Assembly (NCBI GenBank): GCA_030606335.1
Contig: JAUWGP010000002.1
Location: forward strand, 53,939 to 117,938
DNA length: 64,000 bases
Source: Caldifarciminota bacterium
Lineage (GTDB): Bacteria > Hydrothermota > UBA3073
Direction: 5' to 3'
This document shows positions 21,520 to 50,387 of the stretch, piece after piece. The translations under genes and the position numbers were made by a program. Under the pieces are notes generated by a model. That model saw only the letters and a program-made list of their open reading frames with translations. It was not told the DNA's origin and made no database searches. Within the stretch, counting starts at the first letter, position 1; every line of letters begins with the position of its first letter.

Positions 21520-22070
21520 AACAGGGATTGAAAGAGATTTGAAGAGTTTTTCTTTCTTATTTCCTGTTTTTTATTTCTTTAGTTCTCTCTTGATCCTTGT
21601 CAAAAAAGGTCTCTTCTTCCAAACTCAAACTTTCTTTCTCTATTTGATAGAAGTTGTCAAATCTTTTGTATTCTAACTCTTTTTTGGCGAAATTCACTAA
21701 AAATCCAATAAGAATTTTACTCACCCTTAATTGTGATATTAATTGTGCCTTATGGTCTACATTCAACTCCTTTACTGCTTTAACTTCAACAATAACTTTC
21801 TCCTCTACTAACAAGTCAGGTACATACCTGCTGACTTCTTGAGTCTCATACATAACAGGAAATTCTTTTTCAGAATCAACTTTCAAGTCTTTGTTTAACT
21901 CAATAAATAAAGCCTTGTGGTATGCTCGTTCTAATAAACCTGGACCTAATTGATTGTGAACTTTATAAAATGCTTTAATAATTTTATTTGTAATAGGTCT
22001 GAACTCAGAATCATTCCATTTCATTTTTATCTCTTAATCCGTCAGCTGACGGACTCTTTCAATCCCTGTT
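21520..22070. repeat. 17-bp perfect inverted repeat flanking a GxxExxY gene (21520-21536 and 22054-22070)
   Basis: aacagggattgaaagag versus ctctttcaatccctgtt. Confidence 0.85.
21557..22024 (-). CDS. GxxExxY family protein (putative PD-(D/E)xK nuclease-like)
   Basis: IKAFYKVHNQLGPGLLERAYHKAL, YVPDLLVEEKVIVEVKAVKEL, QLRVSKILIGFLVNF. Confidence 0.88.
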   Translation of the reverse strand: MKWNDSEFRPITNKIIKAFYKVHNQLGPGLLERAYHKALFIELNKDLKVDSEKEFPVMYETQEVSRYVPDLLVEEKVIVEVKAVKELNVDHKAQLISQLRVSKILIGFLVNFAKKELEYKRFDNFYQIEKESLSLEEETFFDKDQERTKEIKNRK

Positions 22071-24024: not shown

Positions 24025-25455
24025 TTATTTCAAAATAAGCATTTTTCTGGTAATCTTAAGCTCATCAGCTACCTTCAGTTGGTAGAAATAAACTCCACTG
24101 CCAACTTTACTACCCAATTCATCTTTCCCATCCCAATACACAGATTGCACAGATTCATTTGGATTACACAGATTGAGAGGGAGGGTGCGGATGAGACTAC
24201 CAGAAATGTCATAGATGTGTATGGAGTGCTGTGACCATGTCACAGCAGCATCAACACGGTTGATGCACTCCAAAGTAATAACTGTTCTCTCTCTAAATGG
24301 ATTGGGATAGTTCCGTAAAAGTTTGAAATCCAAATATAGTGACATAGCATCTTCTACACCTGTTATCTCATTATACGAGCCGTAGATATTATAATCTCCC
24401 TCTTTCTCAGATTGCCAGACTATCCATACTTTATCATCTCTATAGGCAATTGATGGTTTACCCCCCAATGCGCCATAACACGAATCAACAACCTCTATGT
24501 TAGACCAGCTAGTTTCATTGTATACACTCGCGAGAATTCTATAATTGGGAGTATATATTGCCTCTTCCTCATGCCAGACAGCCCATAGTCTTCCCTGCTC
24601 GTCTGAACATATATCTGGATGCGAATTATGACCTCCATCAGTGGTATCGAAATAATGTGGAAATTCAATCAGATTTGACCATTCTAATCCGTCATGATAC
24701 CTCATAAAGATTGCTCCTATCCCCTGGTAATACGAACTATTAAACCATGCTACCCAGATGCTTGATGAATCAGCACACATGGTGGGGTAGGCATAATCAA
24801 AACAGGTTCCGATGCTTTCAGGTGTTGACCAGTTATTTCCATTCCAGTATTGAACCCATATGGACTCGTGATCGTTATAACATACCCAGACATTACCTTC
24901 GTTGTCTATAGTAATTCCTGTGGTATAAGTTATTTCTACTGGTGTAAATTCTTTTAACGTATCAGGGACAGCCCAATTTCCCCATTCGCAATGACTCGCC
25001 AAGTATAATCCATTAGCTGTCCACATGCACCATAAGATAATACTGTCTCTGTCATAAGCAATGGCTGGATCATACCCCTCAATCCTTGAATCAGGGGGAA
25101 TTGTCCACCATGAAACAGGTGGCATCATATCGCTGAGTGTAAGTCTAACAAATCCACTTGAGTCTACCCAAGCTATTATCCAATCTGGTATTTCATAAGT
25201 ACCTTTACATGCACTTGAAGTTGTAACCTGAGGGATTTTACACTTTGTAGTGTCTATGAGAAAGACCTCTGACCAACCTACGTACGGATTATAACATCTT
25301 GTCCACAGGTGATTTGAGTTATACCAGTATACCCATACTTCACCTACTTCCTCTATGCATATTGAAGGATGTGTATCATATGAAGAATCGGGTGAGATAC
25401 GGATAGGTGATATCCACTGCTGGATTAAGAAGAATAAAATTAATAAAGGATACAT
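24025..25455 (-). CDS. Secreted protein with T9SS C-terminal sorting domain (paralogous C-term to previous)
   Basis: LLRNYPNPFRERTVITLECINRVDAAVTWSQHSIHIYDISGSLIRTLPL...GVYFYQLKVADELKITRKMLILK. Confidence 0.8.
   Translation of the reverse strand: MYPLLILFFLIQQWISPIRISPDSSYDTHPSICIEEVGEVWVYWYNSNHLWTRCYNPYVGWSEVFLIDTTKCKIPQVTTSSACKGTYEIPDWIIAWVDSSGFVRLTLSDMMPPVSWWTIPPDSRIEGYDPAIAYDRDSIILWCMWTANGLYLASHCEWGNWAVPDTLKEFTPVEITYTTGITIDNEGNVWVCYNDHESIWVQYWNGNNWSTPESIGTCFDYAYPTMCADSSSIWVAWFNSSYYQGIGAIFMRYHDGLEWSNLIEFPHYFDTTDGGHNSHPDICSDEQGRLWAVWHEEEAIYTPNYRILASVYNETSWSNIEVVDSCYGALGGKPSIAYRDDKVWIVWQSEKEGDYNIYGSYNEITGVEDAMSLYLDFKLLRNYPNPFRERTVITLECINRVDAAVTWSQHSIHIYDISGSLIRTLPLNLCNPNESVQSVYWDGKDELGSKVGSGVYFYQLKVADELKITRKMLILK
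24223..24271. repeat. 49-bp double-hairpin palindromic element in frame in a T9SS domain (copy 2)
   Basis: Identical to 22683-22731 except two substitutions, both in hairpin loops (cgt/cat, atg/acg). Confidence 0.85.
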
Positions 25456-28496: not shown

Positions 28497-28757
28497 ATTT
28501 TCTCTTTTTTATTATTTTTCTCAGTATCTAATATTCATTATACCTGATTTATTCAGAGTGGTATCTTGTTAAATCGTAGGACAAGGCTTTCTGACTGTAC
28601 CGCCTACTGTAGGGCAAGGCTTCAGCCTTGCGGAAGCAAACTTAAATGTTTACCCTACATTTTTAAATAGTCATTTAATACTATTTGAAGAATATGTAAT
28701 TCTCAATCACCATTATCTCAGTGTTCTCTGCGTCCTCTGCGGTTAAAACTCAGTGGT

Positions 28758-29798: not shown

Positions 29799-30131
29799 AA
29801 AAATTAACCACAGAGTTCACAGAGAATTCTTTATTCTTAGTCTCGGCGTTCTCTAATCCTTCACTTACCATTATTGACTTAATTCTATTTTTCATTACTG
29901 TCACATTGAAATAGAATAATCAATCAACCTCTAAACTACTTACTTGCAAATCTTGCATACATCGTTTTTTTCAGTCTTGTTGCTAACGTTAAAAGAATAA
30001 AACATCTCGAGATAGGTGTTGAAAATTCACAATAATTATGTGCTGTATATTTTAGAGTACACAGAGTCCTATAGTCTTTTATATATTCTATCTCTGTGAA
30101 CTCAGCGTGCTCTGCGGTTTATTCATTGAAA

Positions 30132-30932: not shown

Positions 30933-31429
30933 CTTCTTCCCTCCATAAAATTAATGGAAGTGTGCAAAATCTAACCACAGAGAGCACAGAGGATCTTTAG
31001 TATTAAGGGATTATAAAAGATTTTTATTCCTCCCCTCTGTGTCCTCTTTACATAACCAATTTTTTAATCTTTATACATAGAAATTTATAATTAAAAAACA
31101 GGGATATTAAGAAATTGAAAGAGATTCATTTTTCTAAAAATAATACATTCTCTTAAGTTCTCTTTCCATCCCTGTATAATTACATCCGTTAGCTAACGGA
31201 CATTGTTCGGAGGACACAGAGAATTAAATTTACTCCCTGCCCTGTTAGATGTTCTTGTCCCGTGAGATGCTCGCTATCTAATGGGATACTATCTAACGGG
31301 GTGAATGACCTCTGTGGTTTTTCATATTCTTTCATTTTATTTTTCACAGTATCAAATTAATAGGTAAACAGCACATAACATCTGACGTGTTTACGAAGCC
31401 CAACCTTCTATGCTTTAAGCATTGCCGCC

Positions 31430-43741: not shown

Positions 43742-43759
43742 TTTTAGGACGCATTTATG

Positions 43760-44211
43760 GGACGCAGATGAACGCAGATAACCAAGATAATGAATTCAAA
43801 TATAAAGAACTAACTGGAAAAATTATAAAAATTTACTACAAGGTTTATAACAAATTAGGATACGGTTTCTTAGAGAAAGTATACGAAAATGCATTGATGA
43901 TAGAATTCAAAAAAGAAGGAATACCAGCAGTAGCACAAGTCCCAATTAATGTATACTATGACAATAATGAGATTATAGGCGAATATTATACTGACATATT
44001 GGTTGATGAAAAAGTCATAGTTGAAATTAAAGCAAATAAAAAGCTAATAGAAGAGAACGAGGCTCAGTTATTGAATTATTTAAGAGCAACAGACATTGAA
44101 GTAGGTTTACTACTCAACTTTGGACCTGACCCAGAATTTAAAAGAAAGGCATTTGATAATAGTAGAAAAAAGAAAATAAAGAATCCTGATGACCTGCGTT
44201 AATCTGCGTCC
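43760..44211. mobile_element. GxxExxY gene unit bounded by 19-bp imperfect inverted repeats containing its start and stop codons
   Basis: ggacgcagatgaacgcaga (43760-43778) versus cctgcgttaatctgcgtcc (44193-44211), 17/19 complementary. Confidence 0.55.
43768..44202 (+). CDS. GxxExxY family protein (putative PD-(D/E)xK nuclease-like)
   Basis: IIKIYYKVYNKLGYGFLEKVYENAL, YTDILVDEKVIVEIKANKKL, LLNYLRATDIEVGLLLNFG. Confidence 0.88.
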   Translation: MNADNQDNEFKYKELTGKIIKIYYKVYNKLGYGFLEKVYENALMIEFKKEGIPAVAQVPINVYYDNNEIIGEYYTDILVDEKVIVEIKANKKLIEENEAQLLNYLRATDIEVGLLLNFGPDPEFKRKAFDNSRKKKIKNPDDLR

Positions 44212-50189: not shown

Positions 50190-50387
50190 ACACCCGCAAA
50201 CTATTAAACTGAATTATCTTTCTAAAAGACATAAAATGGTTCAACCACAGAGACTATAGAAAAAAAGAGTTTCCTTTTAAGTATATCATTAAGAAGTAAT
50301 ATATCAAAGTATTAAAAAATCTCGGCGTTCTCTGCGCCCTCTGTGGTTAAAGATTTACACCATCTTTATCTGTTAAAGGAGGTGATA

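Follow-up and report, generated by a model that had tools for sequence, protein, structure and literature searches.

GxxExxY unit and its terminal repeats

In the window, the whole analyzed stretch of 64,000 nucleotides, a GxxExxY gene is enclosed by short terminal repeats. The left repeat GGACGCAGATGAACGCAGA (43760-43778) and the right repeat CCTGCGTTAATCTGCGTCC (44193-44211) are inverted-complementary at 17 of 19 positions, exactly as a preliminary description of this DNA had claimed. The best 19-mer pair of equal spacing at 300 random window positions reached only 14 of 19. The full left array (43760-43779) reads GGACGCAGATGAACGCAGAT. The features of the locus are as follows:

43747..43753, + strand: vestigial half word GGACGCA directly outside the left array (sequence; the alignment with sister genome G001 breaks at 43753)
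43760..43779, + strand: left terminal word array GGACGCAGAT GAACGCAGAT, two CGCAGAT words with a 10-bp period (sequence, word pattern scan)
43768..44202, + strand: GxxExxY gene, 144 amino acids, predicted RecB/Cas4-like PD-(D/E)xK nuclease (TIGR04256, PF13366, AF2 model, fold matches)
44193..44211, - strand: right terminal word array CCTGCGTTAATCTGCGTCC, an inverted copy of the left array (17/19 complementarity)

The open reading frame starts with an ATG within the left repeat and ends with a TAA within the right one. This arrangement, pointed out in the preliminary description, holds for the window copy but not as a general rule: of 150 loci flanked by words at both ends, 55 have an ATG within their left array, and just 13 have the stop codon within the right one. 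The adjacent tRNA gene had been regarded as meaningful context; it is incidental, as such a neighbor is not general among the copies, and a tRNA-targeted island was ruled out on the same ground. No known RNA family was detected in the repeats by Rfam, the tRNA being its sole match in the window.

Further copies in the window and the source genome

Thirteen GxxExxY genes are present in the 2.43-Mb source genome (G000). Four of them, including the window copy, have approximately 80% DNA identity and a common GGACGCAGAT boundary repeat, and the remaining paralogues are flanked by different repeated words, such as CCCACGAAGGACACGAAG, AACAGGGACTTGGAAGAGACTTG, and GGAGAAAAAAGGAG. Allowing up to 3 mismatches, the window terminal word occurred 35 times in this genome, compared to 0 occurrences of the reversed control. 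Some of these matches are gene-less inverted pairs spaced by about 80 to 260 bp, one of which contains gene remnants. Many truncated or stop-containing gene copies were also found. The window itself carries a second gene with another word family and several gene-less arrays:

21520..21539, + strand: word of the second element, AACAGGGATTGAAAGAGATT
21653..22027, - strand: second GxxExxY gene, other word family (HMM match of 153.8 bits; the same gene as G000:C11:75597-75932)
22057..22070, - strand: inverted partner of the second element's word, TTTCAATCCCTGTT
24139..24154, + strand: gene-less CACAGAT array (word pattern scan)
28717..28741, - strand: gene-less CGCAGAG array (word pattern scan)
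29809..29824, + strand: gene-less CACAGAG array, 9-bp period
30976..30991, + strand: gene-less CACAGAG array (in G001, a 66-bp CCCTGTTAAATA palindrome separates two words at that site)
50321..50345, - strand: gene-less C(A/G)C(A/C)GAG array (word pattern scan)

Separately, the intergenic segment 49726-50093 matches at least 30 dispersed places in G001 and represents another repeat family.

Properties of the encoded protein

The window protein is a clear member of the GxxExxY family, scoring 132.3 bits against TIGR04256 (cut-off, 35; E = 1e-38) and 136.8 bits against PF13366 (PDDEXK_3; cut-off, 22; E = 5.6e-40), well above the curated thresholds. Only these two models were matched; no transposase or recombinase domain was found in it. 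Its AlphaFold (AF2) model is confident, with a mean pLDDT of 89.3. The best fold matches in the PDB (Foldseek, probability of 1.00) were LHK-Exo and the Cas4 protein SSO0001, with lambda exonuclease matched as well, at a modest TM score of about 0.5. Cas4 profiles gave weak matches among defense models, and a sequence-only PDB search returned merely insignificant matches to T7 endonuclease I (E of 0.55 to 0.78).

Residues E36, D76, E86, K88, Q100, and Y104 are the putative catalytic residues; all six are conserved, in the manner of RecB-type PD-(D/E)xK nucleases. Conservation among 257 copies was 255 for D76, 251 for E86, 253 for K88, 247 for Q100, and 236 for Y104, and the putative active site is retained in about 98% of copies. 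The protein thus fulfills the criterion of a PD-(D/E)xK core fold combined with a D...ExK...QxxxY motif. The PD-(D/E)xK core suggested earlier is supported by Pfam, by the confident model, and by the LHK-Exo/lambda exonuclease and Cas4 fold matches. On this basis the GxxExxY protein is predicted to be a RecB/Cas4/lambda-exonuclease-like PD-(D/E)xK nuclease; its activity is inferred and has not been shown.

Repeats accompany GxxExxY genes across phyla

The preliminary description had proposed a search for terminal inverted repeats around GxxExxY genes from many genomes, and had accepted in advance that flanking repeats equally frequent elsewhere would count against it. A global sample of 80 GxxExxY loci from approximately 25 phyla, including archaea, was assembled with flanks of up to 10 kb. 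The search pattern was built from a 7-sequence subset, which biases the sample toward the "GFLEKVYE" branch; the sets of relatives and of held-out loci are free of this bias. A strong inverted repeat (local alignment score of at least 32, 250-bp flanks) was found at 57% of 77 loci, compared to 0.45% of 2,690 control positions. Direct repeats were present at 35% of the 77 loci versus 1.3% of control positions of those loci. When either kind of repeat was counted at a score of at least 36, the values were 57% for GxxExxY genes and 3.0% for ordinary open reading frames of the same loci. The expected repeats were hence present, and the refuting outcome did not occur. Linkage between gene and arrays across phyla, as well as their inverted layout, is established by these computations.

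Organization of the word arrays

The flanking repeats are arrays of a 7-bp word, C-R-C-N-R-A-N, spaced every 8, 9, or 10 bp. The words found include CACAGAT, CGCAGAT, CACGGAT, CACGAAT, CGCCGAT, CACAGAG, CGCAGAG, CACGAAG, CACAAAG, and others. The autocorrelation of the flanks in the global set displayed a clear excess at 10 and 20 bp only. Three or more copies of one CRCNRAN word within 200 bp were detected at 125 of 205 loci (99 genomes). The pattern had 1,067 matches, compared to 324 ± 121 with permuted tokens, a few near-identical permutations still reaching 700 to 980. Words pointed inward 469 times and outward 147 times, the inward direction prevailing on both flanks, and roughly TTAACC precedes the first word at the outer end of either side. 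The unit length is 10 bp in most T-ending words and 8 to 9 bp in most G- or A-ending words. About 40% of the 205 loci lack a recognizable CRCNRAN word, being either decayed or of other types (e.g., AACAGGG or TGATTA). Several subfamilies (L056, L059, L060, L247, and L248) use non-CRCNRAN words (TGATTA-like, AACAGGG, ACAGGAT, and CACAAGAT); the vocabulary as a whole thus exceeds what the tested code covers.

Three further observations concern sequences inside or around arrays. Palindromic mini-elements of about 66 to 80 bp, CCCTGTTAAATA...TATTTAACAGGG, repeatedly occupy the precise gap that separates an array's two words (L120:3933-4015 in G001, L053/L210, L121:365-434, L224, and L217); one clean empty site was seen when L053 was compared to L210, a comparison that also shows a second hairpin. 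Inside the word, at ATCTG^CGTCC, a GC-rich hairpin of 34 bp, TCCCGCTTTCTTCGGGATCCCGCCAAAGGCGGGA, is found repeatedly, in L053 (G000:C42), L224 (G001:C19), and L266 (G000:C11). Finally, the two strains differ by about 400 bp in the long tandem AACAGGGACTTGGAAGAGACT arrays that surround a GxxExxY gene (G000:C57:8100-9800, L267, versus G001:C135, L246).

Protein residues predict letters of the words

Word similarity correlated with protein identity (r = 0.455; 7,750 pairs), and none of 2,000 permutations gave a value as high. The correlation persisted between different genomes at less than 60% identity (r = 0.436). Paralogues of one genome have different words, and within single genomes it reached 0.531, unmatched in 2,000 within-genome shuffles. 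Limited to pairs with less than 60% identity, the same-genome correlation was only marginal (101 of 2,000).

Associations between single residues and letters were pooled over 162 loci. Thr16 was accompanied by G at letter 5 in 92 of 92 cases, and Ala, Val, Ile, Met, or Cys at this position by A in 24 of 24; Ser16 occurred with either G or A. Asn28 was found with T at letter 7 (73/73) and Asn13 with A at letter 4 (40/42). A C at letter 4 always coincided with Asp13 (13 loci) or Glu13 (1 locus), Asp13 being seen with A and G as well, and a T at letter 4 coincided with Ser13 in 6 of 7 loci. Unit length was associated with residue 37 (Lys in 72 of the 77 ten-bp loci) and with residue 103. In trees built without the helix, residue 16 was the top-ranking column in co-change with letter 5 (8 branches in common, 1.4 to 1.5 expected), as residue 28 was for letter 7 (4 of 8 to 9 branches, about 0.35 expected). 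All four combinations of residue 16 with residue 28 exist, each with the expected words.

Predictions from residues 16 and 28, though not from residue 13, were fixed in advance and then applied to 52 held-out loci, retrieved afterwards from further genomes of the phylum; a word could be called at 37 of them. Letter 5 was predicted correctly from residue 16 in 25 of 25 cases, and Asn28 predicted T in 10 of 10. The inference from Arg28 or Lys28 to "not T" was correct at only 17 of 25 loci, with mostly Arg among the exceptions. With failures at 8 of 25, this inference falls short of a full rule; Arg28 leaves letter 7 unfixed.

The associated residues (13, 16, 17, 20, 24, 27, and 28) lie on one face of the first predicted helix (residues 13 to 30), which in the window protein bears the putative word-reading residues K13, T16, and N28. 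Its T16, N28, and K37 agree with CGCAGAT words at a 10-bp period. Contacts of Asn with A, Asp with C, and Arg or Lys with G are well known from protein-DNA complexes, which makes direct reading of the word plausible. The residue-letter code itself is a computed result. That single residues predict letters strongly supports the view that the protein reads its own repeats and that its first helix does so through residues 13, 16, and 28. Probably one protomer sits on each word along one face of the DNA, as we infer. The preliminary description had missed both the composition of the repeats from tandem 8- to 10-bp words and the relation of their letters to the protein.

These results bear on the possibility that an unrelated transposase mobilizes the arrays as miniature elements, with GxxExxY merely inside some of them. 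Terminal inverted repeats and gene-less derivatives do exist, and the GxxExxY nuclease is not a known transposase, as this reading would have it. However, a single gene family occupies the arrays over about 25 phyla, its residues predict letters on held-out genomes, and no other gene was found within the units examined; we give this reading little credence.

Presence and absence of units in closely related genomes

The sister genome G001 belongs to the same genus and is approximately 97% identical to G000, with 94 to 98% identity in most flanks compared. Both are draft metagenome-type assemblies in which single junctions could be assembly errors, and single junctions are therefore weaker evidence than the overall pattern. 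Two insertions are precise and have an empty counterpart in G000: L248, a unit of 513 bp, and L247, one of 435 bp. The empty sites contain no words, and the target duplication is 0 bp at L247 and 2 bp (AG) at L248. Further presence/absence differences, with different or leftover sequence in the other genome, were seen for L250, L245, L239, and the gene fragment L060. Word families were swapped at the same site in L055/L211, L020/L215 (equivalent to L237/L262), L049/L217, and L251/L265, the last with a remnant. A solo array faces a fuller unit at one site in L033/L229 and L024/L216, and L050, L053, L057, and L058 are common to both genomes. At the window site, homology to G001 is broken at 43753/44202, where G001 carries a decayed, oppositely oriented unit from that family.

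Polymorphism of the units between strains is thus visible in the aligned genomes, and the occupied and empty pairs that had been called for exist. The suggestion of a small mobile or repeat-propagating element is sustained by these pairs and by the linkage of repeats to the gene; movement catalyzed by the protein remains inferred.

Could these differences result from a homing-type selfish nuclease, which cuts gene-less word arrays so that homologous repair, guided by the shared arrays, inserts a copy of the unit? Inverted ends would permit copying in either orientation, in agreement with the opposite orientation at the window site in G001, and the solo arrays facing full units, the gene-less units, and the families swapped at identical sites are also compatible with it. 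Yet the insertions at L247 and L248 entered word-free sites, swaps between unrelated word families cannot rely on array homology, and arrays of just 20 to 40 bp or so are short for homologous repair. In homing, an insertion splits the recognition site and the empty site holds it; this was not fulfilled at L247 and L248, and some other sites keep a solo array. As a general account we therefore regard homing as unlikely, although homing via array homology remains possible for some events, such as the orientation flip and the solo arrays.

Two observations on neighboring genes are added here. In one GxxExxY family (L245, L247, L248, and L060 in G000/G001), the terminal palindrome GGTATAATGAACATTATACC lies directly 5' of a Shine-Dalgarno-like AGGAGG or AGGGGG and a start codon; this family may insert at Shine-Dalgarno sites and supply a promoter. 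Among the 150 loci with words on both sides, a codirectional downstream gene start with a Shine-Dalgarno sequence was located within 100 bp of the right unit end in 38, and an outward start at the left end in 4; the value for random positions was 6%.

Gene-less arrays and occurrence outside chromosomes

In 40 related genomes, a two-word pattern yielded 1,021 matches versus 71 for its reversed control. The number of arrays tracked the number of GxxExxY genes (rho = 0.72), with a median of 16 arrays in the 26 genomes with the gene and 0 in the 14 genomes without it. Some draft genomes have arrays without a matching gene, namely G036 and G020, the latter with 15 arrays and an exception among the 14. 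The existence of dispersed gene-less arrays is accordingly a computed observation. Reversed-pattern controls (0 versus 35 in the source genome, 71 versus 1,021 here), together with the position and open reading frame controls, already refute an origin of the repeats by chance from AT-rich intergenic DNA, which has nothing but the AT richness of the genome in its favor and can be practically dismissed.

Almost no arrays were found in three genomes (G027, G033, and G038) that have only a longer GxxExxY variant (L080-L082), with frames of 271 to 279 amino acids; the G038 frame contains two adjacent matches. This variant is perhaps a domesticated branch.

GxxExxY was detected in 0 of 50,697 phages and 7 of 72,556 plasmids, and a single relative was present among 2.9 million viral contigs. 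The units do not meet the criterion of being common in phage or plasmid records, and a viral origin was ruled out by their near-absence from phages and viral contigs.

A resident DNA-binding nuclease with a role in regulation or defense might alternatively use the arrays as operators, or have them as protected targets, without carrying them. An autoregulator would likewise read flanking words directly, and the weak Cas4-like matches among defense models fit such a role. Against this stand the inverted arrays that flank the gene left and right, the dozens of dispersed gene-less arrays, whole units present or absent between sister genomes, the many truncated gene copies, and the near-lack of phage and plasmid occurrence. 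We consider this explanation improbable.

A probable self-propagating repeat unit

In our judgment, the window feature is probably one copy of a very widespread repeat unit that propagates itself by means of a word-reading nuclease, the catalysis of movement being inferred. Each unit comprises an inward array of 7-bp words (8-, 9-, or 10-bp period), the GxxExxY gene, and the same array inverted, usually within about 0.4 to 0.95 kb. Its sole gene product is a predicted RecB/Cas4/lambda-exo-like PD-(D/E)xK nuclease of approximately 125 amino acids. Protomers bound to the two inverted arrays may pull the ends together, and the nuclease would then cut at the synapsed ends; host repair would assist in transferring or copying to another place either the unit itself or, in trans, a derivative without the gene. 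Synapsis, cleavage, and transfer are all inferred. In the resolved insertions the target was not a word array, the duplication was 0 to 2 bp, and one family lies beside Shine-Dalgarno sequences.

Several observations count against this explanation. The units encode no enzyme for strand transfer, no clear target duplication was seen, and PD-(D/E)xK nucleases are not known to join ends on their own. The loci without a CRCNRAN word, the arrays in genomes without a matching gene, the failure of Arg28 to fix letter 7, and the draft state of the sister assemblies also weigh against it.

With less assurance, we lean toward a broader proposition: GxxExxY units are previously unrecognized, pan-prokaryotic autonomous mobile elements, in which one nuclease with a code (residue 13 for letter 4, 16 for letter 5, 28 for letter 7, and 37 for spacing) recognizes the arrays and is responsible for spreading itself along with thousands of arrays that lack the gene. 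If true, this would provide a function for one of the most widely scattered uncharacterized small proteins of bacteria and archaea, account for a large class of dispersed intergenic repeats (CACAGAT, CGCAGAT, CACGAAG, CACAGAG, and others), and define a new type of mobile element with a PD-(D/E)xK nuclease as its sole enzyme. The residue-to-letter relation is directly testable and could serve the design of word-specific DNA-binding proteins. Replacement of word families at the same site raises the question of competition between elements at preferred sites.

Comparison with known systems

No description of GxxExxY units was found in the open-licence PMC literature by family name, accessions, or words; prior description elsewhere is not excluded. 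A passage of one paper mentions GxxExxY merely as a gene adjoining a reverse transcriptase (PMC8934634). The family names TIGR04256 and PF13366 (GxxExxY, PDDEXK_3), to which the window protein clearly belongs, carry no function.

Homing endonucleases, which include PD-(D/E)xK types, are likewise small selfish nucleases that recognize DNA and spread their own gene. GxxExxY genes differ from them in that they are not carried by an intron or intein, the recognition words on either flank form inverted arrays and remain intact, and no words were present in the resolved empty sites. The PD-(D/E)xK fold is common to TnsA, which cuts transposon ends, and to the Cas4/lambda-exonuclease group, but GxxExxY stands alone, without TnsB or Cas1, and residues of its N-terminal helix covary with DNA words. 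Insertion sequences and their miniature derivatives (MITEs) have the same unit of a gene between terminal inverted repeats, internally deleted gene-less derivatives, and presence or absence between strains. The insertion-sequence criterion of terminal inverted repeats enclosing a gene is fulfilled by GxxExxY units, whereas that of a known transposase or recombinase is not: they encode no DDE, HUH, tyrosine, or serine recombinase. They also differ in having arrays of direct words inside each end, and the target duplications at the two resolved insertions (0 bp at L247, 2 bp at L248) are not clear ones.

A similar outline is that of REPIN-RAYT systems, in which a single nuclease-type gene, usually in few copies per genome, is flanked by its own short repeats, many gene-less inverted pairs are dispersed, and the partner protein reads the repeats sequence-specifically (PMC3116915, PMC8266576). 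GxxExxY units are alike in the gene with its own flanking repeats, the usually low gene number per genome, the dispersed gene-less pairs, and the inferred specific reading of repeats, and they fulfill the criterion of dispersed gene-less repeats that depend on the cognate gene (rho of 0.72). RAYTs (TnpA-REP tyrosine transposases) are HUH/Y1 enzymes acting on single-stranded hairpins of 20- to 40-bp palindromes; GxxExxY proteins are RecB/Cas4-like PD-(D/E)xK proteins by prediction, with tandem 8- to 10-bp words in inverted arrays and units present or absent between strains, and the HUH/Y1 gene criterion is not met. GxxExxY units thus resemble REPIN-RAYT systems in outline, yet fail both the enzyme criterion of those systems and the transposase criterion of insertion sequences.
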